From contig NC_064767.1 of assembly GCF_011397635.1 (NCBI RefSeq), positions 19,890,537 to 19,954,536 of the forward strand: 64,000 nt of DNA, given 5' to 3'. Shown piece after piece: positions 14,106-45,836 of this stretch; within the stretch, counting starts at the first letter, position 1; each line of letters begins with the position of its first letter. The DNA is from Epinephelus fuscoguttatus. Taxonomy: Eukaryota; Chordata; Actinopteri; Perciformes; Serranidae. A model generated the notes under the pieces. The model had not been told where the DNA came from. It was given only the letters and a program-made list of their open reading frames with translations, and searched no databases. Both the position numbers and the translations under genes were made by a program.

Positions 14106-17100
14106 ATGACTTCACTCTGTAGGATGAAGAATGTAAAGATATTACATTTGCCACTGCTTTTTGTGTTTGTGCACGCCTGCTTTGGTAAGTTACACTTCTT
14201 TATTCTCTGCTTACGGTTGGCGTGTTGCTGTGATCAGACTGGGAAAACTGTTCAGATATATTTGACAGCCTCTGGGTTGTTTTTTACTCAGTTTATAATT
14301 GAGTTATATTCTGTTTTCAGTTCAGTCATTTTCGTTTCTAACCTGGTTAGATGCTCTTGTATGTGCATATGTGTTTACACTCTGTATGACTATCATACTG
14401 ATTGATTTGTTTGGTATATGAATTTAGTTTCAATATTTAGATGATTCTGCTATTTCAAATAAAAACAGCATTATTTCTACCACCAGAGATCTTAAGTCTA
14501 TGTATAGAAAAGGTATATTAGGAGGTTGACGTAACTCACCTGTAATCCCACTCAAAGTGGTTGAGAAAGCAGGGGGGCGAGAGCTCAGTAGGCCTACAAT
14601 CGCCTTGGTTTATGTCACTCCAGTATTAAAAGCAAGACCATGTAATATTTACTGAATTCAAATTGGACTACTGAGCTTGTGTTTGCGACCTTGTGAGTCT
14701 TTTACACAAAGTTGTGAACTCAGAGGTCTCTGAAAATGTTCACTTTCGATGTTGTGTGTACCACAACCAGGGGCTGTGTTCATATGGACTCTTCACATGG
14801 TAAACACGACTCCATTTCAACGCAGCATTGATGATAATTGACCATGGTGATCACAGATGACAAAGAACAATTAAGTAATATTACGCTTAAGTTTGCTAGC
14901 ATTAGCAAACATTAACCACCATGCTACTGTTTATATCAGACCAAGTACTGTTGCAGCAAAACTCCTGAGTGAACTAAATTGATTATGTGTTTTAAGTTGT
15001 GAATTCAACTTTGTAAAAGGAACATTATATTATTTTTTCATTCCTGGTCTCACTTTGAGGTGAATTACTTTAAACTTTCAAGCTTTTAATGGTGATTTTA
15101 TGTCACTGTCCTCAGCACAAGCAGACTTCGCCCCCTATTTCTACGACAATGGACCCTACAGCTACAACGGAAACCTGGCACTGTTCAGCCTCTCGGAGGA
15201 CACGGCTGTCGGTGAGATCAACCTCTGACATACTTGACGCTTATCATGAACAGCTAATAGTCAGGTGGAACAACTTATCAACAAAATGGCATCTTTTTGT
15301 TGCCAGTACCTCAGAGTCCAAGATGTTAAACAGTCTTTGATAGATGAACAGGTGTTGTGTGGTGTTACACGCTAACATGCTCACCTGCCAGTGCCACCTG
15401 TTGATGTGAAGGACAGTTTGCTGGCTGTGAATGTGGTGCAGCTGTCCCTCTACAACTTCTGTCAGTCAGGGTACTTATTATACTGCTGGCTGCTGTGTCT
15501 CAGTTTGCTCCACCACAGTTTTGCTCAAACAACTGTTTAACTACGTTCCTGGATTGCTGATTAATTTTGCCAGTTTTGATCAATATTTTATTCTTAAAGT
15601 TAGAAATGGAGAAGGAATTAACTTCTTTGTCCATAAAGTCAACTGTTAAGGCTAATTTGACTAAATTATGATGTCTTCTTTCAGGTACACAGATCTACTC
15701 TCTCAATGGCACAGACCCTGAGGGCCAGGAGGTGAGTTACGGCCTTTCGTTTGATCCAGGGTCCAAAGAATACTTCAGGGTCGACCCCAAATCTGGAAAC
15801 ATCACACTGGTGGAAAAGCTGGACAGAGAGGTAAACTTAACATAGGCTTAATAAATGATTAAATTGACTTTATATGTAATTCCTATAACCCTTTAAAAAA
15901 CTAAGATGCTATCTTTTTCATCGTGTATGACTTCATATCGACTTGTTTTCTTCTTCACAGAAACAAGACTCTATAGACGTTCTTGTCAGCATCACAGATG
16001 GGCAAAGCAAGGTATCAACATCTGTGATTAAGCCATTTAGTGCCATTCTTATAATGAATCAAGCTGAGATGAACTTGAGCATGCTTTTATTTTTGTTCTT
16101 TTTAGGTTGTGGAAAGAGTCACAATATTTGTAATGGATGCAAATGATGAAAAACCTGACTTCCAAAACATGCCAGCAATCATTGATGTACTGGAAGTAAG
16201 TTAAGCTAAAAGTGTCATTCTCTCCAGATAAAATGAAAAGGACAGTACATTACTATAAAAATGTTAAGATAAATGTGTGTTGCATCATTTTATTTTCCGC
16301 CCCATATGTTGTGACCTGAATTATTTTCTGTGTTTTAGACGACTGAGTCTGGCAGCAGCATCTACAGAGTGGAGGCAGTGGACAGAGACACAGGCTCAGG
16401 GGGTTCAGTCACATACTACCTCCAGGTATCACTCGGCCCACTCACATACCACACTATCTGAGTATAAATAAGCTGAGTAAAAAAGCACAGATAAAACCTT
16501 TAAGAAAAAGTGCTCCTCATATGACATACTAGCTGAAACTGGCCAGTTCGAATGTTAATCTGCTTGTCATGGAACTAATGTATAAATGTACTTATAATGA
16601 GGTTAACATCAGTTGGATTTTCTGATGCTCATGTGTGTATGTGTGCATGTGCCTAAGTATGTTGGTGTAGTTATGGGGCAGGGGATTAAATCACAATTAC
16701 ATTTGTGTTAGGTATTGGAGGCTTAGAGGGCTGCTTTGGCAGGGGGTGGCAGGGAATGTTAGTTTGCACTTTGGACTATTAGGAACAAAGAACAGCTGGC
16801 CCGGAGTGACAGTGACGAGCGAGGCACCGCACATCTGGGCACAGCAGCTTTCACCTGCCTGCCCTGTCCTTGAACATATGGGCTCTTTACATCCAGATGG
16901 ACAAAGAGATATACTTTATACATGATGTGGCCTAATTCAAGTGGCTACTGAGTGTTTTAATGCTGCCATCTGACCACTTTTCATGATATCTCACGTGAGT
17001 GGTTGTAAATGGGGTTTAGAGGTTTCAGAGACAGGCTTTTACTCGTGTGACCTAAAATGTGTCTCAGTGTGTGCTTTTAAAATCCTGCTTTTGTCCTGTT

Positions 17101-20100
17101 CTCTGTCACAGAATCCTCAGTCTACTTTGTTTGCCGTAGACAGGCACAGTGGTGTCCTTCGTATCAAGTCTGGAGAAATGTTGGACTATGAGAAAACAAA
17201 GACACACTTTGTCACTGTCATTGCAAAGGTAATGGGTGCACCAAAACTGATCTAATGTTTCTGCAACAGTGTACTTTCATTTTCATTTTTAAAGAACCCT
17301 GTGGAGTTTCTGAATGTTAAGAATGTTAGTGGTGTTTTGCGGCAAAACATGGCTAGCATTAATGGATTAAACAACGCAGGTGTTTTATGACGATGGAAAT
17401 ATATTCAACATGTTTGGTAGGAAACACAAAATACATCTGGGTAAGAAACCCTGAATGTAACAATGTAAATGTTTCTCATGCATATAAATTAGAAGGGGTC
17501 AGTTACATCAACACATTCTCATCCGAAGTCCTAACATATCGCTGCTTTGTCAGTGGTCTTTCACGTCTACAGTACATATTACATGTTATGTATCCTTCTG
17601 CTTCTGCCGTTGATGTTCCAAGAGGGGCTACCAACACCAGGACATCAACATGCATAAGCACATGATTGGATTTAAGCAACAAAAGCACTTCGTCTGGCAT
17701 TTAGGAAGCAAACACCAGGCTCTTGGGTGAAAGTCTGGGGATTTGTTTGACCAACCTACCACCCCTTCCACCTGCACTACAGAGACTGTCTTGCTTCTTA
17801 TATTACATTGTTACCAGCAGTGTTTCAACTTGACACCATCCAGCAGTGCATCATAGTGCCACAACAGGTGCTGTCTGGCTGACTGGCAACGAATCATAAC
17901 AATGCGAAAGGTTACACCTGGCTGCATGCTAACACTGCCCAGACGTGTATCATACTGCTGCATGATGGATTTTGGCGTCAGGTGTCTGATGCCAAAGTCA
18001 AAGACATAGCAGCGGTATTTGACGATTTTGGAATGAGGACAGGCTGGCTACATCTACCAGTATGTACAGAAGGCCGTTATCAGCTCATTAACTGGCATTT
18101 ATCAGGAGCATACACACAAACATGTCAACCTCTCATGGTCATAGTAATTATGTCGGGAGCAAAGGAGGAAGTCAGGTGATGCAGTTTAATGAGCAACAAA
18201 TTCCATGTAGGGAGGTGGTCACGGATTTGTCAAACAAACACAGGACTTTCATCCAGGAGACTGCCTGTGTTCTGACTCCTGTGTGAAACCAAAAGTCAAC
18301 CCTGACGTAACATAACTGATATATGTCATGTCAACATAAATAGTGATAAACATTTCAAAACATAGGCATAACTGTTTATGTTTATTATGTCTTTCTTAAA
18401 ATGTAGCTTTAAACTGCACATTTCTTTCGTTTCAGGATGGTGGTGGCAACTTTAATGGCAAGGAGCAGTTCATGTCATCCTCTGCTACCCTGACGATCAA
18501 TGTGATCGATGCACAGGACACTCCGCCATCTTTTATTGGGACACCGTATTTTGGCTACGTTTATGAAGTCTCTGTGCCAGTGAGTATGAAAACACAGTTT
18601 ACTGACGTTCTGCTTTGACTGACATGAGAGTCTGTATAACAACTATTCAGAGCACAAGTCTTAAACATTTTGTAAAGTTCTTTTCTGCCACGTTTCTTTT
18701 GTATTGCAACAGATTTACATCTTCAATGAACATCACGTTGAATTATCACAGTACAGCGAGGCTTAGTAAACTAACATAGTGAATGCAATTTATCTGTATT
18801 CATGGCATAAATAAGAACCCACACCACAAGGCAGCATCGTCTCATGTCACACAGCTTTAATTGCTGACATTTTACACTAATACCCACGGTGCTTTCTTCA
18901 TAGCTTTTCTCACAGCAGGTGAAAGCCACATTATCTCCTCAGTCACCAAATGTCACTGCAGTCATAGGAGAGAGATTGCATGTTCTGACTTTCATCTGAA
19001 AGGGAATAATTAGGATCATGACATTTGAATGTACATCTGAAGACTCAGTGAAGATCAGGTGCAGAATAGATTGTTGTGGTATGTTTTAAATAGCTGTGCA
19101 CCAGTCACAGGGTAGCTCAATTACGTAAATGTCCTGCTTCCCTTTGAAAATGTGATGTAACCTAATACAGAGTTACATCATGGTAAGAGTGACATATTAG
19201 AGTTGTCAGAGAGTCAGTCGTGTCAGTTATTAAAGAAATGTTAATAATTTGCAGTATATTTTAAAGTAAGCTGGCTTTACAGCCTGGTTATCTTAAACTA
19301 CCAACACTAACTATCAGCTTTGTGTCATCACTGATTTAACTGCAAACCTTTCTGCTGATTTTTTCCCCAGGGATCTGAAATATTCACTGTTGTAGCTAAA
19401 GATGGCGATGTAGGAAGCCCAAATCCAATCCGTTATTCTTTTGACGATGGTAAGCATTTCATTAAAACAAAGCTGGAGTGACTCTGAAATAAAGCAAAAG
19501 TGCTCATAGAGTAGGTCTGTCTGTTAATTGTCTCTCCAGGCGACGATGGTGTTTTTAGCATCAATAGATCAAGCGGTTGTATCACCCTGCTGAGTCTCCC
19601 CATGTTTCTGAAAAGAGAAATCTTCAACATTAAAGTCAGGGTAAGTTGCGGTTCACAAAGTACAACTGATCTGTGAACCTGGTAGATTAAACATCTCACT
19701 GGTCGAGTAATAAATATGACCTGTATAATCTTTATGCCCCTGTGTGTCCAGGCATCAGAAGTAAGTCCTGAAGGCAGACCCATGGACTATAGTGTGACCA
19801 CGGTTGTGATCCGTGTGGTGGACCTCAACAATAATCCACCTACTTTCTACGGGGAGAACGGCCCACAGAGCATGTTTGAGTTGACCATGTATGAGCATCC
19901 ACCTGAGGGAGAGATACTCCGTGGGCTGAAAATCACTGTCAATGACTCTGATCAGGTGGGGAGAACACTACTGTCATCCATATTTTATTTTCTCATACAC
20001 TGACTCATTAGTATGAAAATGCAATCCAATGGCAAGAATAAATGTAGGTATTGTTTCTGCAAACCATGAATATGTTATATTTGTACATTTTATATAAGTG

Positions 20101-22882
20101 GATATGTTGAAAATTTACATTTCTTTAAGTTTCAATTTTCAATTTAACATTCTGATAATGATGTGGATAATGTGTGGTATAGATTTAGGCACATAAAATA
20201 TTTGGTTATGGTTAGAGAAAGATAATGGTTTGGCTTAAAATACCCACTTTTGTCGGCACAATCTTGGTGGAAATGTCTGCACATGTCCTTAAGAAATATA
20301 TAATTATGTTGCTACAGTCTCGCACAGGTATAGGCACAAAAAACTCTTGGTTATGGTTAGGAAAAGATCATAGTTTGGCTTACAATACCTGATTTTATCA
20401 CCACAATCTCAGCTGGAAAAGTCCAGATTGGTCTTTGCTTCTGACTGCAAAGTCACTGCAGGATAACTAAACAAGTTATTAGGGGAAGATCACAATTTGG
20501 CTTAAAATACCTGCTTTTGTCGCCACGATCTTGGTTGGAAATGTCCCAACATGCCCTGAAAAAATATACGGTGTTGTTGCTACATTTTCACCAAGGTTTA
20601 GGCATAGAAAATACTTGGTTATGGTTAGAAAAAAATCATAGTTTGGCTCACAATACCCGCTTTTATCGCCACAATCTCAGCTAGAAAAGTCCAAAACTGT
20701 CTTTAAAAAGCATCAAAGCACTGGTGGTGTCATGCCATCCATCAGCCCCTCCTCCTCCATATGTCAAACTCATCTTACATGTAATCTGTACTACGTCACT
20801 TTTATATGTATGAGACATGCAAATGTACTGCAAGAAAATTTAAATTTATACACCCCTAATTGTGTCTCTTCAAGTTTTGACCCATTGTTTTTGGGTTAGG
20901 GCTATCAGAAGCCTAAAAACAAATCTGACATAAAAAAAAAAAAACACTGTGGTTATCATGTGGTTAAGTTTAGGCACAAAAAACACTTGGTTAAGGGTTA
21001 GGAAAAGATCAGCTCTTGGCTTAAAATATCTGTTTTGGTGGCACAAACATGGCTGGAAATGTTCCAGTGTCTCGTCAAAAACACCCAGTATTGTCACAAT
21101 AAACACAGCTGGAAGTGTCCCAACGTCTCATTAAAGATATCTGGTTTTGTCCACAAACAAGGTTGGAAATGTCGCTGGTCTCGAACAGTGGTCTGCTGCT
21201 TGTCAGCTGCTGTCTTGCCTAGCTGTCATTACGACCACAGTACCCCCCACTGCTGATGAGAAACTCAGCTCTTTAACATTCAGTCAGAACTACGTCACGT
21301 TAAAAATGCTGATATAGTGTGATTCATATGAAACATACAAATGCAACATATCCTCAGCTTCCAGAGACGTACAGTGCCAACATTTTATTCTGTTGACTGG
21401 GTCTGAAAATGACTCAACAAATCACAAACAATAGCTTTTTCCAGTGATGTTTTAGTGAGCAGGAATCATCTTTTAGCACTGATACAGTATTATTGCCACT
21501 GAAAGCTGCATCACTTAACCAGGGGGAGGAACACTACAGTGATTATGATACAGCAATTATGTAATAACACTCATTTTCCAACCAAATTACATTGTTATCT
21601 AATAAGAAACTGATTAAATCAACATTCACTGCACCACAGTGTTGCGCTCAGGCTGGTGTCTGCCTTTATTTCTGTTAAATAACTAAGCCCGCCATTATCA
21701 CAGACAATCCTTTTAAAAATTGCACAAATTTGAAATTAAGCCAACACAAATTAAAAGGTGCCCCCGAGTTATGCCATTTGTCAGCTTATGCAAGTCTCTT
21801 TGTGTTTCCAGCTCCTTGTATGAGCCTCATCCAAATGGCTGATGTTCACCAAATGTGTTCTCTGATAATACTGTTACAACATCAGGCCGAGCTCTGTTTG
21901 TCCAGTGATATTACGTTTCACCACGAATATTATTGTTGCCACTGATATCCTATTGATTCTCATACATTACTGTAATAATGAAAAGATACAAAGCTTTTAT
22001 ATTGATTGAATGGACTATACTGCATGGATTATACTGTATGTGATAGCTTTATAACAAATGCAGATTACTAAAAATAGGTTCACTCATGTATGACATTTCT
22101 GACTAATGTGATGATGTGTGTTGTGTTCCTGCAGGGTGCGAATGCTAAATTCAACCTGAGACTGATTGGACCTGGAAGGATGCTGAGAGTCGTCCCTCAG
22201 ACTGTACTCAATGAGGCCCAGGTCACAATCTTAGTCGAGGACTCTGCTGCCATGGACTATGAGAAACACCACTTTCTCACATACAAGGTTAACCCATTGC
22301 ACCACAGTAGACCACCTCACTGGCAGTGTTATATCACCTGCATCTGTTGCATAATTGCCCTTTTCCCATTTATTTATTCCTAATCTTTCTCCTCATTAGC
22401 TGCTCGCAGTTGAGATTGACACACCCGAGAGATTCAGTGCCACAGCTGACATTGTCATTCACCTCCTGGACACCAACGACAACGCTCCCAAATTCTCCTC
22501 AGACTACTACATCGCCAGAATCCCAGAAAACTCACCCGGCGGCTCCAATGTGGTGTCAGTCACGGTGAGAGAGAGAGTCTTCACCCTATCTAAAAATACA
22601 TGCCAACACCAATGTACGTCACTGTGAGCTAAAGAGGAATGCTGATTTTTTCCAAAATGCCCAAGCAGGGCCATTAATTCCCTAAATGTAGACTTTTTGA
22701 GCGGTGGGGGTTGGGATAATATGTGAAAACATGTAGATAAAAGCTAGGCGAGGTAAGCTGCCAGATGGCTATCACTTTCATTTTGTTGTGTAACACCAAA
22801 TTCCCTGATTTTTTTTTCCTAATGCTCAGTAGCACATGCAGCTGCAGCTCAAAAATATGTGCAGAAATAACATGAGCACTTT

Positions 22883-22914
<32 letters not shown>

Positions 22915-25900
22915 GACTTTTTTTTCACTATCTCATCCTTCGCCCTTGTCAGTTCCTATCAGCCCTGCAGAGGCTCAAAGCAACAGGGGGGCTCGCTGAT
23001 AAATCCTGCCCTTGCGTGAACACCACAGAGGCTCATTTCCTTGATCCCAGGCAATTTCAATCAGATAAAAGAACAGCCAACAAGTGACCTTGGACACACG
23101 GAGACAGCGAACAGGCATCCCTGCAGCGACAGACAGACAGATTAGCCGATGCCCATGATGATGTTCCTATGACATCAAACAAACAGAAAAAAACACAACA
23201 GTCTTTTTATAGCTGACCCCTGCAACATCACCTTCCAATCCTGCACGGATTCATTCAGTTTACTGAGCCCATGGCAGCAGACAGCTCTCTCTTCTGCTTT
23301 GGTAAAGAGGAACAAACAAATCTAACATCAATATTATGGGGTTTATCGGCGGTATGACGTCGAACATAAGTGGGATATGCCTTAGCTCACTGAGCTGCAT
23401 ATAAAACTCCTAAAGAGGAATTGCAGATTAACTCAACTGCTGTGAAAGTTATGTTGAACTGACCTGATTCATGTAAGTGCCACAACCAAGCTCATATTTT
23501 TTCTCTGTTCCCTGTCTTTTCTGTTTATGCACAGGCAACAGATCCAGACTCAGGACCTTGGGGTGATGTGAAGTACTCCATCTACGGATCAGGGGCTGAC
23601 TTGTGAGTATAAGTGTGTAACTTAAAGTTAAAGAAATGGGCTTTTTTCAAATTCCTCTCATCCTCCTAACACTATTATTTCATCAATAACGACTGCCATG
23701 CTTATTAAAGCTTAAACAGCATTATCTCACTGTCAAAATAAGACATATTTAAAATCCACTGGTGAGATTTCTTTTATTCTGCATAAGAAAAAATAAATCT
23801 ATTACTGTATAAAACAACCAAACAATGTTTCCAAAGCACCAGACTATGTTTTTCTGCCTCCAAGTCTATTCATTAGTCACTGTGTAGTGATTTTGTCAAT
23901 GTGAACTTGTGACTGTGTGAAAAAAAAAGAAATCACAAACACTTCTACAACCTTATGAGCAGCTGATATCCTGAGTATTTGGCAGCAGTAGATAAACAGA
24001 CCACACACTGAGGCATTTATCTTAAAGGGGACCTATTATGCTCATTTTCAGGGGCTACTAGAACATGTATACATGCTTTAGTGTTCAAAAACACTTTATT
24101 TTTCTCATACTGTCTGTCTAAATATACCTGTATTCATCCTCAGTCTGAGATGCTCCAATTTAGCGCCTGTCTCTTTCAGCCCCGAGCCATTATCACAGCT
24201 GCAGGAATGGTGATGCCTGACTTTCTACCATGAAAAATCACCAATAAGCTTCTAGATCAAATCTTGCAGCAGAAATATGACCCAAAATTAGGGAGAAAAT
24301 AACTACATTGGTAACCAAGATAGCTACATGTAGCAGTGTATGTAATGTAAACACTTGCAGTAGTGTGCCTGGGGCAGATGACCACATAAAGAAAATCCAG
24401 CAAAAACACTTCTGCCTGAAAGCTGCACAGAAATATGACAGCCGACTTGTTTTTCATTTTAGACTTGGTCCTGTTTATTGCACCTAAGCACTGTAGTCCC
24501 TCAGAGGATTTGCTGGCATTTTCTCTCAACTCGATTTTTATTAGATTTCCAGTTAGAAGTCTTACCTCTGAGAAAAAAGCTCAGTGGTCACTGTTCTTGC
24601 TTAATAACACACAGTATTCCCACAGCTTACTTTTCCTTTCACATCACTACAGAGTCAGTCCTAAAGGTCATTGGCATTTTGGGTAAAGTTAAGGTTGTTT
24701 TTTTTAAGCAGACAGGTGTGTGATAGTAAGGGCATGTTTAATCTCTCAGGGCTAAAAAAACACTTGTTGTATACACTGAAATGTAGGTAGTAGTAGAGTA
24801 TTTTTAGACTTCTCGGTACAGATTTTGAGCTCTGTAGCAACGAATTAGAGGAGATATGTGATGTCACTTGGCATCCAGGAAAAGGATTTCCAAAATAAGC
24901 AGAAGAGAGAGAGATTTGGAATACTTTTATCTTTGTGCATGTTTCCTTTGAGATTATTCCAAAACGTCTCTTTGAAATTTGTTATGAAGCAATAAATGAC
25001 TACATGTCACAGTAGTACATCTGTAAAATTAGGCTTTTTAGATGTCAGACTTTTCTACAATATCTTGTTGGATACTTCAGCACACACAGGACCGTGCAGT
25101 CGTGATCTTTGTCTGCTTGCCCTCTGTCTTTGTTAATCCTGTAATAGGATTGGAGGAGAAAATAGACTGTTCTTTGCTTCTGACTGCAAAGTCACTGCAG
25201 GGTAACTAAACAAGTCAGTCAGTGAAACAGTCTAATTCCACTCTTGCTCTGGATTTTTACAGTTCAGTCTTTCATGACTTAAGTTCACTGGCAGTGGTAT
25301 CAAAGTGACCTATTGCTTTAAAGTTTCAAGTGCAACATATCAACACAATTACCAAAATAAATGCTGGCATCGTACATTTCTCTACATTTGTATATTTTGT
25401 ATTTAGTTGATATGTTGAAAATCTACATTTCTTTAAGTCTCAGTTTTCAATTTGATGTTGTGACAACGCCGAGTATAACAAAAATATTTGGTTAGGCTGA
25501 AGGAAAGATCATGATTTGGCTTAAAATACCTGCTTTTCTCACTACAATCTTGATTGGAAATGTCCTGACATGTCCTTTAAAAAATACCCAGTCATGTTGC
25601 CACAGTTTCACGAAGGTTTAGGAACATAAACTAGGCTACTTAATAATGGTTAGAAAAAGATCATAGTTTGGCTTTCAATAACTGCTTTAATTGCCACAAT
25701 CCCAGCTGGAAAAGTCCAAAACTGTTCTCAAAAAGCATCCACTTTTCTAAGAACTAAACAGTGGTGCTCCGGTCTACTGCCTCGCAGCTGTCTCCTAGGT
25801 GTCACGCCATCCACTAGCCCACTCCTCTGTATGTCAACCTCAGTTTGTTTACATGTAATCTGTACTAGGTCACTTTGATACGTACGAGATGTGCAAATGT

Positions 25901-28900
25901 ACCGTATGCCAACATTCTCCTCTGGCAACTTGGCTGAGCATATACATATATCTGATTTTAAAAGAACCTCATGAGCTTCCAGAAAATGATGCCATCCAAG
26001 AGAAAGGTTTATACATTCTCAGAAAGATAATGAAGGTGTACACTCAATCATAATAAGTATTAAATCAGTGTTAAATGTTCAAGACTGTTCAAGGAAAATC
26101 ATGGCTGTCAGTTGCATGCATATGGTAAATCTGAATTAAATTTAAAAAAGTCCCCTCATATTTACAGGTTCCTGATCCAGCCTGCATCTGGGATCATCTA
26201 CACCCAGCCATGGGCGAGCCTGGACGCAGAGGTGAGGTCCAAGTATAACTTCTATGTGAAGGCAGAGGACGCAGAAGGAAAGTACAGCCTCGCTGAGGTC
26301 TTTGTGACTGTGCTGGACCTGAACGACCACCCACCTGAATTCAATGATAACTTCCTTGAGACAACTATGGTGATTGGAGCACCAGTGAAAATAGAGGTAT
26401 TTGCCTTTTGTGATTTATCATGTTGGATAAAGTAAAGCTCAAGAATGAAGTCAATACTATGATGTTTATCTTTATCTACACAGGCTGTAGATGACGATGC
26501 GGAAGTGCCCAACAATGTCATCGAGTATGCCATCATGAAAGCTGAGCCAGACAACAACATCTTTGACATTAACGCTGACACGGGGGAGATCATGCTCAAG
26601 TCCTACATCAAATCAATGGCCATCATTCAGAACATCACCAAGCAGAGAGACTGCACCTGGTCGCTGGTAGTGCAGGCCCGCGACCGAGGCCAGCCGTCCT
26701 TCAGCACCACTGCGGTCGTCAAGATCGACATCACTGAGGCTGTAAGTTGCAAGAAAGTTAGATGTCAGTCAAACCTACTTGAGGGATAATATCTCTCTAT
26801 GATGAATTACACTGATTTTTCAAAAGCTATACACTTTCATAGATGAAAAAATAAGAGTCTGCAAAGTTGCTGATTCACTTCATATTCCAGTTTCCTTTTT
26901 CTATGACAGCCCGATGATCAGAAGAAAATAACGGCTTTGTACGTTTCTGCAAACCACAGATTCATTCCATTTGTACTATGTCATTTCTAAAGTGATTTGC
27001 AACACATTCTCACTCTGACCTCGTCAAATATCAACGCATGATCATGGACTTTCCACTTCCAGATACAACATGAAAGGTACCCTGGGTGTGTTGGTTGTTG
27101 ATGTTCTGGGATGCCATGTCAAGTTCTTCCTGTTACATGCATTGTCTTCTTTCAAAATACACTTCCATTTTTACAGGAAATTTACAGTTTACATACAGTC
27201 TCGCACTACATTTGTACAACACCACGGGTGGTTGAGCTTAGGCAACAAAAACACATGGTTGGATTTAGGAAAAAACAACAGGTTTTGGCTTTATAATCCT
27301 ACAGGATACAAACACGACTTACCGGGGGGTAGGTTGGTGTTTGTTGGACCCATCCACCATCCCTCCTGCCTGATCTAAATGGACTTTCACTCACTGCCTT
27401 AATTATTGTTCTTGTCAAGCCATGTTTCACCCCGACGCCGCTGAGCACCTTTGTACTATAATAGCAACTGGCTCGTATCATGCCAACATTAAAGTTTTTT
27501 CATCAGTGTCTGACACCGTAAGTCACTGCCCAAGCATCAGATTTCGATGACTTCGGAGTGAGTCCGGGTTTGTCATTGGGAAGTAGAGGGGATGGCGGAT
27601 GGTTTTTCATGGAGGCATCATTGTTCCCATGGTGATTGTGCCACCAAAACCGGGTATTTTCAGCCAAAACATGATATATTCCTAACCATAACCAAGTGGT
27701 TTTTGTGCCTAAACCTAACAACAGTGTTGTTGAAACATAACTAAACATAAATTTTCAACATATCTGCTACATAAAAATGTACAAATGTAACATATCAGTA
27801 GTTTGCAGAAACATATAATGCCAGCATTCATTCTAGCAACTGGGCTGTCTATCATCAATTTGTAATGCAAGGGAATGATCCAGTGTTGAAACTTCTAATC
27901 AATTTGTATGTGGAGGTGCAGCTTTTCTCATCACAGCCCAGACTATCAGGTTCACCAGTTGTTTGCTTCAGCAGCAATTAAAAAACTGTAGTCATAAAAA
28001 TAAGTATCTTACACAATTGCAATTTGTTTTCAGATCAAATCCAGATTTGTCTCATACTTCCTGGGCCTAAGGAAACGTCCCGGGGCTGTGTTTGGGATTT
28101 GTTTGACCGTTGTCACCTTCGCCATTTCAGTGACAATCTTCATTTCGACTGTCATATACTGGAACTCTGTGAAAAAGTCCCGTGTTCAATCTCAGGGCAA
28201 GATCAGAAAGATTATAAGGAGGCCTGTGCCATAAATGAAGCTTGCCTTGAGATCACCAGCACAGAAGTACTGTTGTTTTTACTCCGCAGTACCAAGAATT
28301 TCTAGCAGTTCATTTTCTAAGGATTTTGTTGTAGAACAAGGCTGTGTCTGTAAAAGAGTACAGGAGCACAATTTTCCCATGTTTTTGATTTAGTACTCAC
28401 ATTAGGACACCACAAACATCACTAGAGTAAACAAATTAGTTCTGCTTTTTTCTTTTTCACACAAATCCATACACAGTATTCATACTCAGATGCTGGATGG
28501 TCTCAGCAGTGGGTTTCCCAGTCAACCTCTCTGATCTTGTCTTGACAAATTACAAATCAATGGAACAATGAATTTAAGTATACGCGTTGTTTTTATCTTG
28601 TTTACTTTGCAAGACATCAAAGAAGCGGTATTAATGCAGTACGTTCGCAGTAATTTATCCCTGGATATTACAGTTTTGTATTTTGCACCTCACATGATAT
28701 TTTTGGCCAAACGTTGAACACATGCAGTACCACAGTACATACAATATTTAGACGTTAATCTTTGTGTGAGCAATTATGACTTGAGTCCCATGGATGTGAA
28801 TTCTCCCTGTGCTCTTTTACAGACCCAACTCAGTGGGGGGCCTTTGGGATCATTTTTGATGCAGAATAGAAACAAGCCTTTGCAAATTCTAGGCATGCTT

Positions 28901-29386
28901 GCTGGTGTCATTAGTCTCATGGTCATAGTCACGGTCATCATCTCCACTGCAACATTCATGCGCAACAAAAAGTCCAACCGGATCCTCCCTAACCGCCGAG
29001 TAAGGAGGAGGCGGAAGCCACAGCCCTGGAACTTGAAAAACCCCTTTAAGACACCAGAAACTCCCGGAGAGAAATTCCGAGTAGAGGAGGAAGAGCCAGA
29101 GCCAGAGCCAGAGCCGGAGGTCATCGTGGAGAATGTCAACTATAACAACAATGTCAACAATGTTGTGAGACACTGGCCTCCGCCGCCGCCAAGTGCCCCA
29201 TCTCTTCCCCCTCCACCTCCTCCTTACATCCCAGGGGAGAGGCAGTGGGCCGTACCCACCATCTCTGCAACAGTGGCACCCAAACCCAGAAAGAAGCCAG
29301 TGATGAACAGACAGGACACTAAGAACCTAGCACTGGTGTCAGAGCTCAAGATGAAATTGGAGCAGAAGAGGATGCTGAAACATTAG
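14106..29386 (+). CDS. cdhr1: Cadherin-related family member 1 (photoreceptor cadherin, protocadherin-21)
   Basis: Single-pass cadherin at the base of photoreceptor outer segments, needed for disc formation; loss causes cone-rod dystrophy in humans. The 17 exons are 14106-14184, 15116-15211, 15685-15830, 15961-16011, 16106-16195, 16339-16425, 17112-17228, 18436-18579, 19371-19449, 19540-19640, 19752-19955, 22135-22287, 22400-22564, 23535-23602, 26168-26396, 26484-26741 and 28823-29386. All have GT-AG sites and consistent phases and total 2631 nt (876 aa; human about 859). Signal peptide residues 1-27. Six cadherin repeats end at DANDEKP (~135), DAQDTPP (~247), DLNNNPP (~354), DTNDNAP (~473), DLNDHPP (~577) and IDITEA (~689). 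Transmembrane helix 711-734 is followed by RNKKSNR. The long tail has a Glu-Pro run and a polyproline segment. A second in-frame ATG at 14124 has a better Kozak context (A at -3) and would give 870 aa. An alternative last exon lies at 28034-28234. The bounding neighbour lrit2 is convergent. Confidence 0.93.
16426..18435. other. cdhr1 introns 6 and 7 around exon 7
   Basis: Apart from exon 7 (17112-17228), nothing coding. In intron 7 the stretch about 17585-17965 resembles an interspersed fish repeat also seen near 27225-27380 (shared phrases such as 'gaaagtctgggg' and 'tttgtttgaccaacctacc' versus 'gtttgttggacccatcc'). Confidence 0.4.
20085..21260. repeat. Tandem repeat array inside cdhr1 intron 11
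   Basis: At least five diverged units, each carrying a core like TTGGTTATGGTTAGGAAAAG, then ATCATAGTTTGGCTTAAAAT, a 'cacaatctcagctggaaa' block and 'gtcc'. Units begin near 20200, 20346, 20480, 20616 and 20985. Two unit types alternate, so the higher-order period is about 270-275 bp. Similar units recur in introns 14 (about 25480-25760) and 16 (about 27230-27300 plus, about 27600-27740 minus), so this is a dispersed family that has spread through the gene's introns. Confidence 0.65.
22885..22914. repeat. (GATA)n microsatellite
   Basis: About seven uninterrupted GATA units in cdhr1 intron 13, followed by a T run. Confidence 0.9.
24022..24900. mobile_element. MITE-like repeat with a TTAA edge in cdhr1 intron 14
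   Basis: Begins TTAAAGGGGACCTATTATGC, the left end of a very common teleost MITE (TTAA target, piggyBac-type). The internal sequence to about 24900 has the character of this family, but the right inverted end was not found, so the copy is truncated or rearranged. The end coordinate is approximate. Confidence 0.5.
25380..25930. repeat. Second copy of the intron 11 repeat family, in intron 14
   Basis: Two core units (near 25484 and 25640) sit in the same order as the intron 11 array. They are flanked on the left by 'gatatgttgaaaatctacat' and on the right by 'aggtcacttt...gagatgtgcaaatgtac', both of which also flank the intron 11 array (20105 and 20790). A separate phrase, tctttgcttctgactgcaaa followed by gtcactgcagg, is shared between about 20433 and 25172. 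The whole composite element was therefore duplicated or inserted twice. Confidence 0.6.
27180..27860. repeat. Repeat cluster in cdhr1 intron 16, including an inverted unit
   Basis: The plus strand at 27230-27380 carries a 'ggtggttgagcttaggcaac' type unit. At 27600-27740 a unit of the intron 11 family lies in reverse orientation (gtttaggcacaaaaaccact and ggttatggttaggaa read on the minus strand). The right edge 'aatgccagcattcattctagc' matches edges near 21383 and 25905. Confidence 0.5.
28034..28234 (+). CDS. cdhr1: Alternative 3' exon of cdhr1: second transmembrane segment with a short basic tail
   Basis: In the last cdhr1 intron an acceptor (aatttgttttcag) opens a phase-0 reading frame that joins exactly to exon 16 (donor after 26741, phase 0). 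It encodes 66 residues and TAA at 28232-28234. The peptide begins [17 protein letters not shown], has a ~25-residue hydrophobic helix ([20 protein letters not shown], then ISTVIYW), and ends with a basic tail rich in Lys and Arg ([15 protein letters not shown]). It aligns with the start of exon 17: FL, basic residues before Pro, Gly, T.xIST, then KKS occupy matching positions. A duplicated, mutually exclusive exon is therefore inferred. The isoform would be about 755 aa and lack the polyproline tail. No AATAAA or ATTAAA occurs before exon 17; an AGTAAA variant is at 28426-28431. Confidence 0.7.
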   Translation: MKSRFVSYFLGLRKRPGAVFGICLTVVTFAISVTIFISTVIYWNSVKKSRVQSQGKIRKIIRRPVP

Positions 29387-34503: not shown

Positions 34504-35446
34504 TAACTGACCCTTTGCTAAGTCCCGCCCCCGGATGCAGACTGGCCTATCATAGCGTAGCATCAGGCCGGCTCAGACCAGGGTCCGACAACAGCACAGC
34601 TGTGTTCCATTGACTCTAATGCAGTCGTTTCAGATTTCCTTCATTTTCAGGATGGTTTTGTGGATTTGGAGCTAAATGTTGTGCCTGGGGCACGTCGTGT
34701 ATTAATGATACTCGTTACCTGGAGAGGTTGGAAAAAGATAAATGTTTCTTCCCTGTTCCAAAAACAAAATCAAACCCTGAAAAGTGTAGGGTTAGCTAGC
34801 TAGCTACTGAAGATATAGCCTACTGAATGTATACACATGCTGCTTTTGCTTTGTAATGATTATAACAGTGAAACAAAGACCAACCCTGCTGTACAGGAAC
34901 CAGTGAAGGGAAGCAGGGAAACTTTGCTGATATTCAACCAGCTGTGTGTCATCCCAGTGTGCACAGATGAACGTTGTTCAAGTTCCTGTGGAGATCCCTG
35001 CCCTTCCAGTGGTGGCGGTCCGAGTGCTGGCAGCGGCATGAGGGGGAAGCCAAACACCATTCATCTGCACACTGCGCTGCCACACAGCTGGTTGAATATC
35101 AGCAAAGTTTCCCTTTATATTCATTGTGTTCTGTGGCGATCAGCAGTGATGTGGTGGTTCACTTTTACACTGTGATCTGTAGCCTATAGTTCGGCTTTAG
35201 CTTCTAACTATCTTTGTCTTTTTAACCTGTTGTTGCTGCTGAGTCAGTTTGACATCCTGGATATATCCTTCAAACACAGACTGTAGACCCCTCTGTCTGC
35301 TTCTCTCTGGAATCACTACTTCATTTTTCCAAAAATATGATAATATTTCTTCAGGGAGTGCAGTTAGTTACAGTGTGGGCTCCATGCTTACTCTGACAGT
35401 TTGTCGGACCATCAGAAAGGGGTGGGGCTTAGCGAAAGGTCAGTTA
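34504..35446. mobile_element. DNA transposon with TAACTGACC terminal repeats and a THAP-like zinc-finger remnant
   Basis: Left end TAACTGACCCTTTGCTAAGT and right end (reverse complement) TAACTGACCTTTCGCTAAGC form terminal inverted repeats of about 28 bp, with TA (or TTA) at the junctions. At 34680-34790 the plus strand reads CAWGTSCINDTRYLERLEKD, followed by CFFPVPKTKS and KC, the pattern of a THAP-like C2CH domain (Cys, WGT, DTRY, FPxPK). It ends at a possible donor (AGG|GTTAGC). A 33-bp perfect inverted repeat is nested inside (34916-35113). I see no complete transposase, so it is probably non-autonomous. Confidence 0.6.
34916..35113. repeat. Fold-back repeat with 33-bp perfect arms
   Basis: 34916-34948 and 35081-35113 are exact reverse complements (arm contains TTTGCTGATATTCAACCAGC). 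Pairing continues inward with mismatches and a 2-nt gap (cagtgtgcacagatgaa against cagtgtgcagatgaa), so most of the ~200 bp can fold into one hairpin. Confidence 0.82.
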
Positions 35447-36017
35447 CCATCTGGTTTAGGATATTTTCTTGTTCACATATACACACATATATATAAATAC
35501 ACATATGAACAAAAAAAACAATATTAAAGTGCTAACACAGAATTACATAAAGATAAAGCAGAAGATAAAGTATGTACCTAAAGCTGAGAGATTTTTACAA
35601 AATGTACAAAACAGAAGTAACTGTGAGCACTCTTCCATTTGAATCAGTCACAGAGGCTTCGTGTAAAACAGCAGTTTAAAATGTGTGATAATTGACATTT
35701 AAGCATTTCATAACAAGACAAACAGGAGACATTTCAGACAGGAGAAAAAAAAAACAGCAAACAGTGGTGCAAATCCTTGAATTACACTCTTGATAGTCAT
35801 CATTCACATCTTTGCAACAAACTCCTCGGCCTAGAACAGAGGAAGAGATGAGATTAAAACCAAGGCAGACAACACGGTCATTTTTTTTAATATTGTACTT
35901 GTGAGAGTATCAAAGTCAGATCTATTTTTCTACTCTGATATGGATACTGATACAGAGCCACCAGCCTAATACAAGGTCAGTTCTATGTTTTCTCTTGTTG
36001 CTTCAACAAATAGTAAC

Positions 36018-39000
36018 TTAATATAGTTCAGCTGTGAGTCTGCTGTGGTCAGCTTTGCCCTTATACTGTCTGTCATCTGACCTCCTCCTCACCTTCCTGT
36101 CTTCACTGGAATCTTTCATAACCAGGCCCTCGTCACTGGGGGCCTGCAGGCTGTCAAAGGTGCCCTGCCTCTCCCGCTCCATCCCAGTGGGGCTGCTGTC
36201 TCTCCGTCGGTTCTTCCAGGACGCCATGATACCCTCCAGGCAGGCGAACTTAGTGTCAGTGGTGCAGGCGTACATACCTATAGGCACAGCCAGCACCATG
36301 GCTAAAACTATCACCACTATATGAATCAGCTTCTCCCTCTGTTCCATCTCAGTGACGTCACTTCCTGTTACAAACACAATGCACTGGCCGGGACGCGGCG
36401 CCTGGCTCTTAAGGGTCACACAGATTTCATATTTGGTTGCAGGCATCAGATCAGTGACAGAGTAAGAGTGAATCCCTGGGCCGATGTTGATCTTTTCTTT
36501 ATTATCAGCACCCGCGAGGCCAAAGTGGATGGTGAACCAGGTTTCGGATGGGTGGTCCAAGGCGGCACGCCACTCAATGGTAATACCACGTATTGTCTGT
36601 TTGACGATGCGGATGTCAATGTAGATGTTTTCATCGTGAAAAGCAGGTGGAGCCAGATTGCCAGGGAGGAGCGATGACTGGGAGCCGTCAGGAGAGTGCA
36701 CGTCCAGGAGGACGCTGGCTGAGGAGTTTCCAATGAAGTTGACAGCAGTGCAGGTGTAGGTACCACGGTCGGCTGCATGGAGGGATGGGATCAGCAGGAC
36801 GGATCTGAAGGTGTCTTCATCCACTCTCTCCTGAGACTCTGGGAGGAAAACAGGGATATCCAGTGTTATTTTAAGAGACATGCAAGCACAGACGATAAAA
36901 ATGTTTGTAAAAGACACACTTTGTTAATTATCTTAAGACATTTTTCCACATATCAAGTTGAACACAAATTATTTCACCAAATTCAGGTGACTTTTCAGCT
37001 TGAAATCCAATCAAAGAAGCCAATGAATGAAGCCACTTGTGTTCATTAAAGGAAAAATCTGAACAATAATATCCTCTTGAGACCCTGTGTCCTCATATGG
37101 GGACATTACTTTTATATATTATGGACCATATGCTTCATTCTGCTGAAATTAGGCCTTTTGTCCTTGTTTGTGGACACTTCTTTGTGCCATCTAGTGGTAG
37201 TAAGAGCACAATACTAATCCATGTAAAAACAAGATGGCAGTCATCTCTGCCAAGTCAGTCTGCAGCCGACCCAACTAAAAAGTAGACAAGGTTCCACACC
37301 TTGTGATTATTAATAATGTTTGTAGTTTGACATGCCGTACAAACTTTACCAATTTTAGCGAGAGTAGCATGCTCAGATGCTGTTTATTACAAAGTACTCA
37401 ACTGAAGACATTGGGACTTTAGCGTTTCATTTTTTATACTTATCAGATCCTACTAATCCAAAATAGCTAGGAGAAATTAAAAATGCATACCAAACAAAAG
37501 TTTGGCTCTCAGGAGGATATGACTCCTACATGCAAACAGGGACGTACAAGAAAAGAGCGGCAAGACTACAACAGCTTTAAAATAGATACAAATTGTAGGC
37601 TGCAAATAAATTTCCATCATCATTTAATCTGCCAGTTATTTTCTCAATCATTCAAATAATTGTTTGAAAACAGTATATCAGAAAACAGTGAATATTAGCC
37701 ATCATAACTTAAGTAAAACTGAGGTGACATAAACAAAGTGTTTGTTTTGTCTGCACAACAGTCCAGAACTGAAAAATATTCAATTTAACATAAAATAAGA
37801 AAAAGGAAAGACAAACAAGTTAAATTTTCAAAATTGCAGGTTTAAACTAGATTTATTTGTTTTTTACATTTGTGTTTGAACACATCTTAGGCTTAGATTT
37901 GGGAATTATCTCAAAATATCAGGACATTGCAACATGTTACTTTTTAGGATGATAGTTACATGATCCATGCATAATATGCACATAACAATAAAATGCATTT
38001 CCTCACAGATGTAATTAATCTAATGTTGATCTACATGGAACATTTGTGATGATGCTTAATAAATGAAGGCTGGAGATGTTGTCATCATGTAAATTTAATT
38101 ATCTTAGAGGAGATGATCTGTGGGTGAAACAATATCAGTCATGTCCATGTGGAATAAAAGACCTGGGAACAAGACAGCAGGAAGCAGCTGTAACTCTGAT
38201 GGATTTCTTAAATGTTAATAAATATCTTTCTTTTAATTTAAAGACCTAAATAAAGGACACTCTTGAAAATTAGCCTTTTTTAATATCAAGAGGTTTTTCT
38301 GGTTGGTTAAATAAATAAATAAAGATCAGTTAAACTAATAAGATAAAAAAAAATTCTGGGCTGCCATAATTCATGAAGCTCTTAATTCGCCAGGAGGGCG
38401 ACTCCTGTGGATTATTTGACCTCTGACCTTGTGGAAAACAGCTGTAGAGTATCCAAAAAAACCCACATTTATTAACAACTTATTCATATTTCAAAATGTG
38501 CACTTTAGACTTCATCGATTATTTTACAAATCTTTTATTAATGACTTATTGACATATATGAAAACAGATGACTGACTAGCTTTTGCTGTTGGATATTAGA
38601 TAGTGAGAGAACTTTTACTTATTGACTACCCTATCAATTATCGACATGCCTGTAAATAACTTGTATTCAAGGAAGCTTTTTCACTATGTGGCAACCTAAA
38701 AGTTGTTCTCAACAATGGCTAATAACTGGAATATGAGAATTAATGGGGCAGCAGTAGCTTAGTCCTTAGGGACCTAGGTTGGGAACCGGAGGGTCGTGTG
38801 CTCAAGTCCCCGTCCGGACCAAATATACAGTGTGGACTTGTAGCTGGAGCCTCTGGGGCACTGCCGAGGTGCCCCTGAGCGAGGCACCAAACCCCCAACA
38901 GCCCCCTTGCTCAGACATCTCTGCATTTTAATGCATGTATAGGTCCTGTTTGTGCATGTGTGTGTATTTCAGGCCTGTGTGTATGACAGCAGTGTGGAAA

Positions 39001-40830
39001 AAATTGAATTTCCCTTTTGGGATTAGTAAAGTATATCTTCTTCTTCTAATCAATAATTTATTACCCAGTTTGAAAGCAGTAGCTACAACTTATAAACCCT
39101 TTAAAATGCTTCATAGTGTAGTATGGATTTTAGTGTTAGTCATTATTTTGAAGACTACTTTTACTTTTACTTGGGCAGTTATCATTATAAAGTATATGTA
39201 AAAGTATTTTTACTTGGCTCACTTTACTCAACAACACCTTTTTCTTAGATAGATGACTGTCAGCAGCAGGAGTGATGATGGTGTGATAGTGTTGTGATAG
39301 TAACAGGGACACCAGTGGCAGTAGCAGCCGGTTTGCTGTTTGTTTATGCTGCACTGGTTACTTTCAGTCATGATCTGCAGTAAGCACTCCACTCTGAAGG
39401 TTAAGTCTAATGACGCAGATGTTTACTTAATTACACAGTAGCCCAACACGGCTGACATTAGGTAGGCTACAGCACACTATAATCTCCAACACTCTTAATC
39501 AACGCTGATGGTGTTGTGCAGATCGAGAGAATCAGTGGTGATTATCAGTGGGCCAATATCCAAATACTCAGATTTAGTTCTCCTCGTCTTAAGGAAGGGT
39601 TATGAGGTCTGCGATTAAACTGTGTTTAAGTATCTAATTTACCACAAGATATCACTCTGGGTGTGCGGATGACACATCGTGGACATCACACTTACCATGA
39701 AATCCTCTGATTATCTTCAGGCCATATGTCCACCACACCGCAGGGTCTGGCCTGGCCTTGGCGAAGCAGCGCAGGGTGACGTTTGCGCCCTGAGGCAGGC
39801 TGACTTTGGAGGACGGGGTGGTGACGATGGGCTTCATGCACGCCTGCAGCTCTATCTCATGGAAGAACTTGCCCGCCTTAAAGTCCGGCCCTGAGCAGGT
39901 CAAGTAGGAGTTCATCAGTATAATCGGGGGACTCAGTGACCTGATGAACTCCACGAAGCCCTTCAGGCGGCAGTCGCAGAGCCACGCGTTGTCGTGGAGC
40001 GCCAGCACGACGTTCGGCCCGAAAGCGGTCGCCTCCCGCTCCTCCGTGCTCTGTAGTTTTTGGTACAGAGGCCAGTTTTGGAACACCTCCTTCGATATGA
40101 CCGTAAGCCGATTGAAGGATAAGTCTAAGTAAGTCAGACCTGGCAAAAATTTTAACGCATGCTCCGGCAGGACGTCCAACTGGTTGTGCTTCAGGTCCAG
40201 GATCTTTAGGGCCGGCGTGTCCTCGAACGCTGTCCATGGTACTGAACGGAGCTTGTTCCCTTGCAGACGGAGCTCGGTTAAGTTCCCCAAACCTTCCAGA
40301 CCCTTTGAGTTTATCACTGTGATATCATTGAAGTTCAACCACAAGTTTTCCAAAGCAGGCGTTTTTGAGAATGCGCCTCTGGGTATTTCAGTGAAGTGAG
40401 ATTTCTCTATGCGTATTTTGGTCATATCATCTGGAAGGTTCTCTGGTATGGCCCCAAACGCGCTCTCCTCCATACAAATGAGTGACCTATGATAAAGAAA
40501 GAGTTTACATTGACATTTGGTCACTGTATAAGCTGGTTCTTTATAAACACGGGACCATAGAGCTCAGTCTACTCCCTAAAGGTAACCTTTATGAGACAAT
40601 ACACACTCTCCACACAACCATATGTCTTTAGTTTATCTGCAGTCACCTACTGACACAGTTGCATAAGTTAATAATGCCTCTATCTACGTGAAGCTCGGAC
40701 TGCATGAAAGCAGGTCTTACCTCCCATGACGGTCCTCCACACAACTGCACCCACGTAAACATTGTGAGGAAGTTTCATACGTCTGGATGTTGAGCAAAGC
40801 TATGACCAGCAGGTAACAAATTATGTCCAT
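36018..40830 (-). CDS. lrit2: Leucine-rich repeat, Ig-like and transmembrane domain protein 2
   Basis: Type I membrane protein of the retina; LRIT2 is photoreceptor-enriched, with an adhesion or synaptic role inferred from its domains. Exons are 40830-40721 (ATG at 40830), 40486-39696 and 36838-36018, with phases 2 and 1 and consensus splice sites: 1722 nt, 573 aa (human 550). Signal peptide residues 1-22. N-terminal cysteine cap C24, C28, C30, C41. About five leucine-rich repeats run from 58 to 180 ([32 protein letters not shown]), with C-terminal cap NAWLCDC, C234 and C253. The C2-type Ig domain uses C277, W288/289 and DRGTYTC330. FN3 domain ~370-462; transmembrane helix ~471-491; tail rich in Arg, Asp and Ser, ending RLTAELY. 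Convergent with cdhr1 and in tandem with lrit1. Intron 2 (2.9 kb) holds a SINE. Ig residues and the FN3 phrase [14 protein letters not shown] follow human LRIT2 closely. Confidence 0.93.
36839..39695. other. lrit2 intron 2
   Basis: Apart from the SINE at 38745-39045, AT-rich sequence with no coding signal on either strand. Confidence 0.5.
38745..39045 (+). mobile_element. tRNA-derived SINE, plus orientation, in lrit2 intron 2
   Basis: Starts GGGGCAGCAGTAGCTTAGTC, with a B box (GCTCAAGTCCC), middle GGGGCACTGCCGAGGTGCCC, and 3' end GGGATTAGTAAAGTATATC with a CTT repeat. Same family as 12990-13343, in opposite orientation. Confidence 0.75.
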
Positions 40831-40915
40831 AGTCCGCGGGAATCCCTGAAGTTAAAGTCTACATTCGTTCTTCAAGACATGTCGAGTGCGGCAGACAAGT
40901 GAAGCCTATTAAGCT

Positions 40916-40921
40916 TAATCC
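40916..40921 (+). promoter_or_regulatory. CRX/OTX-type TAATCC motif upstream of lrit2
   Basis: TAATCC 86-91 bp upstream of the lrit2 start codon (gene on the minus strand). It matches the CRX core site used in photoreceptor promoters. Inference from position only. Confidence 0.3.
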
Positions 40922-41089
40922 CTGACGTACCGCGCACTGAACAAGTGGCATCTAATTCTTGGGAGAGACACGCATGATTAACACAGGACCAGCAGGTCTG
41001 ACCCACTATTTGTTTGAGCTGGAACCACTCTCTGATTGGTTAACCTCTATAAAGGTCAGCCTATATAAAGGTTGACTGATTGTAACTAA

Positions 41090-42710
41090 CTGATAATTTA
41101 CTAATTACCTATAGACCACAAGAACAAGTTTTTGGGTTGCCAGTTTATGAAAAAGGCCCTCTGACTCATGTCTAACCTTCCTATTTGGCAGCAAAGGAGG
41201 TTTAACACTTGGCAAGCCATTAATAAATACCTTAGTACTCCACTATCCACTCAGACATCAGGTCTGTAGCTACAGTATACAACAATTTGATCTAGATTCT
41301 CTGCATGTTTTCCCAGAAAGTAAGTGGTCTGTTAGAGGCTCTTACTGATAAATGAAAGTGCTAAAAAGAAAAATGTCCTGCTGGAAAGTAAAAAGGTTTT
41401 CTTTTCACCCGAAGGTTGCTCCTATTAATTGCTCATAACTGATAAATAAAGTATAAGTAAATTATTTTTTAATGTGCAAATGCTTTATCTATCACATGTA
41501 TGCCATTAATAAGTACACGTTTTTGGGTTGCCAGTTTGGAAAAAGTCCCTCTGACTGGTATTAACTCTTCCTGTTTGGTAATAAAGCAGTTATGAAAGTT
41601 GGAAAGCCATTAATACATTTCCACGCTCTAATCAGCCATTAAGTCTGCAGCTAAATAAGTTTTTAAGTTGTTAATATATTAAGTTTGCTCTTGATTATCT
41701 GAATGTTTTCCAAAAATAAATGAATAAATAAATAAATACCCAATTAGAGGCTCTGATTGATGAATAAAGAGCTAAAAAGAGATGTAGCAACCCAAAAGTT
41801 GATATTATTAATTGCTTATAACTGACAAATAAAGCATCAGTGATTTATTATGTATATATATACATTTTTTTACAGTTATAAATGCTTAATCAGTCACTTA
41901 AATGCCATTAATAAGATCACGTTTTGGGGTTACCACTTTGTGAAAAGTCCCTCTGACTGGTATTTACACCTCCTATTTGGTAACAAAGCAATTATAAAAA
42001 TTGGCAAGCCATTAATAAATACTTGAAAGTTCCATTTTGTAATTGGCCAACAAGTCTGCAGCTAAAGAAGTTGATATGTTGTTAATATATTCATTTTGGT
42101 CTAGATTCTCCAAATGTTTTCCCCAAAAAAAAAAAAATTACTCAATGAAAGACTCTTACTGACAAATAAAGAGCTAAAGAGAGACACGTCTTGATGGAAA
42201 CCTTTTAGAGGATTTTTTCACAATCTGCCAACCCAAAGATTGTTCTTATTAATCACATAGAATTGGTGTTCAAGGCATAAGTAAATGATTTATTCATTTA
42301 CAAATGCTTTATCAATCACTTACATGCCATTGTTAAGAACACGTTTCGGGGTTGCCAGTTTGTGAAAAGTCCCTCTGACTGGTATTTACCCACTCTATTT
42401 AGTAATGGGCAGTTGGAAAGCCATAAATAAATATGTGAAGTTTCTAATCAGCCAAGTCTGTACCTAAACAGGTGATTATGCTGTTAGACCAGCATTTTGG
42501 TCTGGATTCTCTGCATGATTTCCCAGAAAATAAATGGTCCATCAAAGGGTTTTATTGATGAATTGAAGAGCAACAAACTGAAAGTCCCTGCCACAGGTTT
42601 TTTAAAGGTTACTCTTATTAGTCGTTTGTAATATATAACATGTATAAATCCAATACAACTTGCAAACCTTTTATGAGGAGTGACTTATCATAAAGTGTTA
42701 GACCACCTGA
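41090..42710. repeat. Tandem array of about four ~400-bp units between lrit2 and lrit1
   Basis: The phrase GGGTTGCCAGTTTGTGAAAA followed by GTCCCTCTGACTGGTATT recurs at about 41134, 41525, 41938 and 42348 (spacing 391, 413, 410). Each unit then has 'ggcaagccattaataaata', 'agccaagtctgcagctaa', 'ttttggtctagattctc' and 'tgcaaatgctttatcaatca'. Units 2 and 3 also carry reverse complements of the opening phrase (for example TTTTTTCACAATCTGCCAAC near 42214), so each unit contains inverted arms of ~35 bp. The units differ by substitutions and small indels, so the array is old. Confidence 0.8.
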
Positions 42711-42924
42711 GACAGACACGAATAGTCAAGTGTTGGCTGATTCAGACCTCATTCCTGTAAATAAGTTTGATCAACCATCAAACCAGCCACATTAATAAAA
42801 TAAAGAAATCCATGTCACCCTTTTCAAATCATTTCTGAAACCCCCTTTGTCAACTGATCAACATGGTGAGAGGGAAATGGAGATATAAGAACACACAGTA
42901 CCGCTACCTGGATATGTATAAAAG

Positions 42925-42930
42925 TTTATT
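42925..42930 (-). terminator. lrit1: Poly(A) signal candidate for lrit1
   Basis: AATAAA on the minus strand (TTTATT on plus), about 1.03 kb past the lrit1 stop; the first canonical hexamer I found downstream. It would give a 3'UTR of about 1 kb that includes a C-rich stretch (43680-43950 on the minus strand). Confidence 0.4.
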
Positions 42931-43679
42931 CAACTATATTCAAATAATATCATTAGAATGAATAGATCTACATTTAACGGGGTAATGATGCCTCTAGGTG
43001 GCACGAAACAGGAACATAAAGATATTTCAGTATGTGTCTCATTGCTGGGAATAAAAATTGTTTAACATTTCATTTTGCATCATTTCCACTCTATTTACAT
43101 TGTGTCATAGTTCAGTCCTTTCTGTACTTCTCTCCAGCTCCAGCTTTTCTCCATACACCAGAGTGTTGAACCATGCCTATGTGTATATCTTCTCTGAGAA
43201 CATATGACAGATATATACAGAGGCACAGACTTAACTGTATATGTAAGTGTACATCATCCATTAAAGTATATACAAATCATACACATACATATATGATATA
43301 AACAATGGAGTGTCGACCGTTGAGTTCCCTTTAAGTCAGATCACGTTGCAGAGGTTTCTTCGCTGGGCAGTGCAAGTGAGATGAAATATAATTTACAATT
43401 GTTATTGTTGTGCTCTTTCAGCTTTTGACATGTTTTCTCTTACAGGCTTTGTGATAAAAACATTCTTTTGGACATGAGAGTGTGAGTGTGTTTGAATGTT
43501 GCCATACAATCAGCGCATGGACACGTGTATGACAGTCCAGTGAGCTTCACTCTATCTGTAAGAAACATGAAATATTCCACAAATATCTGGAAAAATAAAC
43601 AAGTTAATTAATGTCAAATATTCCTCTAAACTGATATTTCCATTATAGTGCAGCGTGCAAAAGTCCTTTGATAGAAGTT

Positions 43680-43955: not shown

Positions 43956-43961
43956 ATGACG

Positions 43962-45805: not shown

Positions 45806-45836
<31 letters not shown>

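Follow-up and report, generated by a model that had tools for sequence, protein, structure and literature searches.

The last intron of cdhr1a in Epinephelus fuscoguttatus contains an alternative last exon that is likely the counterpart of the one in annotated CDHR1 isoform 2. This exon would place the unchanged ectodomain on a short basic tail, in a protein that probably works mainly outside photoreceptors. The exon lies in the window, the 64,000-nucleotide stretch of contig NC_064767.1 (positions 19,890,537 to 19,954,536, forward strand) that was analyzed, where 16 shared cdhr1a exons are followed by a near and a far last exon:

14124-26741, + strand: shared exons 1-16 of cdhr1a, 683 codons, placed by splice signals and paralogue matches (14124-14184, 15116-15211, 15685-15830, 15961-16011, 16106-16195, 16339-16425, 17112-17228, 18436-18579, 19371-19449, 19540-19640, 19752-19955, 22135-22287, 22400-22564, 23535-23602, 26168-26396, 26484-26741)
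28034-28234, + strand: alternative (near) last exon, coding part and stop, with a juxtamembrane segment, transmembrane helix and short basic tail; matched by the paralogue (C20:25136105-25136302) and by 50 of 52 retrieved proteins
28823-29386, + strand: normal (far) last exon, coding part and stop, 187 aa; matched by the paralogue from C20:25137003

The gene model was assembled by combining splice signals with matches, exon by exon, to the paralogous locus on C20. Exon 1, for which the paralogue gave no match, was picked on the basis of an ATG, a donor and the reading frame. Exon 16 ends at 26741 with a phase-0 donor (GCT/GTAAGT), and because the summed length of the 16 joined upstream exons is divisible by three, both last exons are entered in phase 0. 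The predicted short isoform has 749 aa (683 shared plus 66) and the predicted long isoform has 870 aa (683 plus 187). At 144 nt and 258 nt (86 codons), exons 8 and 16 are as long as their human counterparts in PMC5539332. The exon 12 donor at 22287 (AAG/GTTAAC) is unusual at +3, and a crude weight table gave no usable score for it.

The initial annotation had described a phase-0 exon in this intron with an acceptor, 66 codons, a hydrophobic helix and a stop, and all of these elements were confirmed at 28034-28234. The acceptor (TTTTCAG) ends at 28033, the 66 residues are coded by 28034-28231 and the stop occupies 28232-28234. In the same crude weight table this acceptor reaches 2.6, that of the normal last exon 4.5, and the remaining scored acceptors range from 1.9 to 6.3. 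The peptide consists of a juxtamembrane segment, a helix (residues 17-37, Kyte-Doolittle mean of 2.35) and a basic tail built around a 19-residue stretch. The 29 residues C-terminal to the helix include eight K/R and no D/E, and the net charge of the short tail is +6 to +10 in 52 of 52 aligned rows. The normal tail of 147 residues has 28 K/R and 15 D/E, with one acidic run plus proline runs. The proposed exchange of tails holds for the short, mostly basic tail of about 20 residues, but the normal tail, which had been described as acidic and proline-rich, is not acidic overall. Pfam at E 0.001 assigned no family to either last-exon peptide. The six cadherin repeats that the short isoform was said to keep were recovered by Pfam in orthologue P0010, a short isoform, as five stretches above the cut-off and one just below it. 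A Siah degron was considered as a difference between the two forms and rejected. Zebrafish Cdhr1a is reported to have a degron from residue 857, and the Labeo normal tail contains PNAPVMP. In E. fuscoguttatus, neither of two degron patterns tried occurs in the normal tail of cdhr1a or of cdhr1b, or in either short tail, which means that escape from Siah does not explain the difference in general.

The near-exon DNA has a single other match in the 1.05-Gb genome, located on C20. There, the paralogue cdhr1b has the same exon in the corresponding intron, upstream of its own normal last exon, with 33 of 63 residues identical (52%) and no stop. Nucleotide differences between the two copies fall on the three codon positions as 24, 10 and 31 over 63 codons, a third-position excess with a binomial p = 0.011. 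Divergence between cdhr1a and cdhr1b is similar for the near exon (identical at 33 of 65 residues) and for the start of the normal exon (36 of 65 over its first 66 residues). A frame open by chance, or a decayed and unused exon, is scarcely credible given that the near exon diverges like the start of the normal exon and that the paralogue and 50 of the 52 retrieved proteins have a similar, uninterrupted frame. A match on C4, fifth in the genome by protein (E 0.68, two stops), was discarded as noise; its sequence looks repetitive.

Protein databases were searched with three tails. The fish query kept 47 of 90 candidates, the frog query 12 of 22 and the bird query 6 of 19, which gave 52 different proteins (P0002-P0053). 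The searches cover annotated proteins, and the fish, frog and reptile records are predictions. Because only annotated proteins are returned, the frequency with which species lack the exon is not countable from this set. Fifty of the 52 proteins end in a 64-70 aa version of the near-exon peptide. The record titles label 40 of them isoform X2, X3, X4 or '2-T2' and P0048 isoform X1; the other 11 lack such a label. The two exceptions combine the last exons: P0046 (Gymnothorax) continues from a portion of the near exon to the normal one, and P0048 (Labeo) is a chimera. Both are probably prediction errors due to the similarity of the two exons. Identity to the near exon in the window is 48-92% among the 15 proteins compared. 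The near exon changes faster than the ectodomain, with 65 versus 76% identity to gar and 59 versus 68% to the bird. No mammalian tail was among the proteins retrieved with the fish, frog and bird queries. At the level of these database peptides, conservation of the near exon extends from ray-finned fish, gar among them, to tetrapods, represented by frogs, one bird and one snake.

A tree was built from 23 shared parts, consisting of 21 of the 52 proteins plus the E. fuscoguttatus cdhr1a (own_a) and cdhr1b (own_b), the latter joined by hand, and was rooted at the midpoint. The cdhr1a group comprises own_a and nine rows (97/93), the cdhr1b group comprises own_b and five rows (96/92), and the teleost group is supported at 100/100. 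Gadus, Knipowitschia and E. fuscoguttatus keep the near exon in both genes. Since it occurs in both the cdhr1a and the cdhr1b group, the exon predates the divergence of the two teleost genes. Its occurrence in gar, Amia, sturgeon, frogs, a bird and a snake dates it to before ray-finned fish and tetrapods separated.

The near exon and the beginning of the normal last exon are homologous, which means that an ancestral membrane exon was duplicated in tandem, as the initial annotation had proposed from residue matches that are indeed present (for example, T-x-IST). A whole-genome search with the cdhr1b near exon ranks the normal last exons third and fourth of 11 (cdhr1b, E 0.0012, 39%; cdhr1a, E 0.018, 30%), directly after itself and the cdhr1a near exon and ahead of seven weaker matches. 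The cdhr1a near exon also places them third and fourth, of five (E 0.04 and 0.30). Searching in the opposite direction, from the normal exon, gave weak results: the near exons came fourth and seventh of 10 (E 0.16 and 1.7) and lay among noise. Comparison of a profile of the 52 near-exon rows with one of three normal rows gave a probability of 96.8% over 63 columns, a type of score that is raised by membrane composition. Pairwise, the near and normal exons share 15 of 63 residues in cdhr1a and 25 of 63 in cdhr1b. The counterpoint is that two membrane exons can resemble each other by composition alone.

The sequence between the two last exons contains a candidate 3' end for the short form:

28426-28431, + strand: AGTAAA hexamer, a candidate poly(A) signal for the short isoform, with a T-rich stretch after it; from a scan for 12 hexamers
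28345-28373, + strand: possible conserved element of the alternative 3' UTR, a 13-nt identical core in 29 nt; from local alignment with C20:25136373-25136401

Besides AGTAAA, the scan for 12 hexamers found only AATGAA at 28567 between the two last exons. The paralogue has an AATAAA at C20:25136421, 119 nt past its near-exon stop. The score of the 3' UTR element was reached by 4 of 500 shuffles, and its conservation between the paralogues is suggestive only. The two isoforms of the initial annotation stand as predictions, but with its own stop and a probable poly(A) signal the near exon is better described as an alternative last exon. The position of the near exon, first in order and with a candidate poly(A) signal, would also suit a role in dosage, in which the exon and its poly(A) site chiefly reduce long-form levels and the short protein itself does little. 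Dosage control would not require the peptide to be conserved, however. The tail pattern and charge persist in 52 of 52 rows, and differences are distributed over the codon positions as in coding sequence, which makes control of dosage very unlikely.

The intron upstream of the near exon shows no conservation between the paralogues (score reached in 167 of 200 shuffles). This part of the intron contains a repeat (26933-27822) with 44-nt end arms that are 80% complementary (26933-26976 and 27779-27822). The repeat gave at least 49 match rows in its own genome, itself included, from 40 scored of 11,235 candidates, and is likely a DNA transposon-like element. Origin of the near exon from a transposon is not supported despite the repeat upstream, because the near-exon DNA matches only one other genome site, the paralogue. 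A 22-nt inverted repeat (82%; arms 28192-28213 and 28524-28545) flanks the candidate poly(A) signal at 28426 and may be due to chance.

The closest known relatives of the short form are human CDHR1 isoform 2 (NP_001165442.1) and the records named 'cadherin-related family member 1 isoform X2/X3/X4', which represent the same gene with the same branch after exon 16. The isoform X2/X3/X4 records from fish, frog, bird and snake align with the near exon. According to PMC6201214, human isoform 2 has 745 aa compared to 859 aa for isoform 1, and the first 680 aa are identical. The human variant c.2040+5 causes skipping of exon 16 (PMC5539332), which places the end of human exon 16 at codon 680. The 680 shared residues and this exon border together indicate that isoform 2 leaves at the same border, with a 65-aa tail. 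The predicted near-exon form has the exons through 16 in common with the long form, branches there in phase 0 and has a C-terminus homologous to the annotated short isoforms. The human isoform 2 tail (NP_001165442.1) was compared with the near exon by length (65 versus 66 aa) and branch point.

The short isoform is therefore already known at the level of annotation. The initial annotation knew of no published description in fish; fish database records already carry the exon, and beyond annotation no study of a CDHR1 short isoform, nor any on CDHR1 with an alternative last exon, was found in the mainly open-access literature searched. That literature also yielded no discussion of how the exon was duplicated, how old the duplication is or why both teleost genes retain it. 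One variant is named on the short-isoform transcript in PMC9368980. CDHR1 expression in human skin and keratinocytes is reported, with the isoform unspecified, in PMC3688712; the 'isoform 2' appearing there is of a different gene and was set aside.

The proposed use of the near exon is drawn from the anatomy of the gene. Exon 16 would be spliced to one of the two copies; with the near copy, the transcript would end at the poly(A) site belonging to that exon. Either product would have the same ectodomain, and the near copy would give a tail of about 20 mostly basic residues and drop the proline-rich tail with its C-terminal ALVSELKxxLEQK-like end. With less certainty, the short form would show the same adhesive ectodomain without the partners of the long tail, could not stand in for the long form in human photoreceptors, and would have its main role in other cells that express CDHR1.

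CDHR1 is a human retinal dystrophy gene, and we know of no settled role for its cytoplasmic part. The initial annotation had suggested that choice between the two forms could switch the link to cytoplasmic partners at the disc-forming edge. On this view, photoreceptors would make both forms and shift the balance between them so as to attach CDHR1 to such partners, or release it, where discs form. CDHR1 acts in photoreceptors, and the two tails differ strongly, which fits such a switch. The retention of the exon in cdhr1b does not. Zebrafish cdhr1b is reported not to be expressed in retina or photoreceptors (PMC7719784, as 'data not shown', and PMC13090022), yet the cdhr1b of other teleosts keeps the exon, which argues against a purely retinal switch at the disc edge and for use elsewhere. 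The homozygous human variant c.2522_2528del (p.I841Sfs*119) segregated with retinal disease in one family, according to PMC5539332. Residue 841 lies beyond the 680 shared residues, so isoform 2 should be intact in these patients. Disease despite a presumably intact isoform 2 suggests that isoform 2 does not take over from isoform 1 in human photoreceptors. The frameshifted protein also gains a foreign tail that may be harmful in itself, and a need for the long form leaves room for an added role of the short form in the same cells. The disc-edge proposal is thus not supported and we regard it as unlikely; use of the short form mainly elsewhere is the probable alternative.

Drosophila Dscam1 exons 17.1 and 17.2 rejoin common downstream exons, whereas in cdhr1a each of the two copies supplies a separate tail and stop and rejoins no common downstream tail. 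The two genes are alike in that one adhesion receptor has two alternative exons for the transmembrane segment, and the cdhr1a pair is homologous and in tandem, subject to the weak reverse search. The choice between the Dscam1 exons decides between dendrite and axon (PMC2566808). We tentatively suggest that the duplicated membrane exon might be a vertebrate two-way switch akin to Dscam1, in which the long tail would direct the protein to the photoreceptor disc base and the short basic tail to another membrane or tissue. The short form would then have a conserved job of its own, kept in both teleost duplicates and apart from the disease-linked retinal role. PCDH15 is a long cadherin with the alternative cytoplasmic tails CD1, CD2 and CD3 behind a shared membrane segment. 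It resembles cdhr1a as a long cadherin with alternative C-terminal exons and differs in that the membrane segment also changes in cdhr1a. Zebrafish Pcdh15b is reported as a possible Cdhr1a partner.

An isoform with the same ectodomain and another membrane segment and tail separates adhesion from tail function and would allow the purpose of the normal tail to be tested. The short form is conserved between ray-finned fish and tetrapods and is testable through one small exon. It also bears on which CDHR1 isoform a gene replacement supplies and on the reading of variants in the normal last exon, by which isoform 2 should be unaffected.

Other loci were noted downstream in the window. On the - strand, 35000-47000 contains leucine-rich-repeat frames (39655-40563 and 46275-46796) and immunoglobulin/fibronectin frames (36021-36923 and 43965-45056), which we take to resemble lrit2 and lrit1, the neighbors of human CDHR1. 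On the + strand, 52089-52538 has a weak rhodopsin-family 7tm match under the Pfam cut-off (26.9 versus 30.5 bits) and, by its place, is perhaps rgr.
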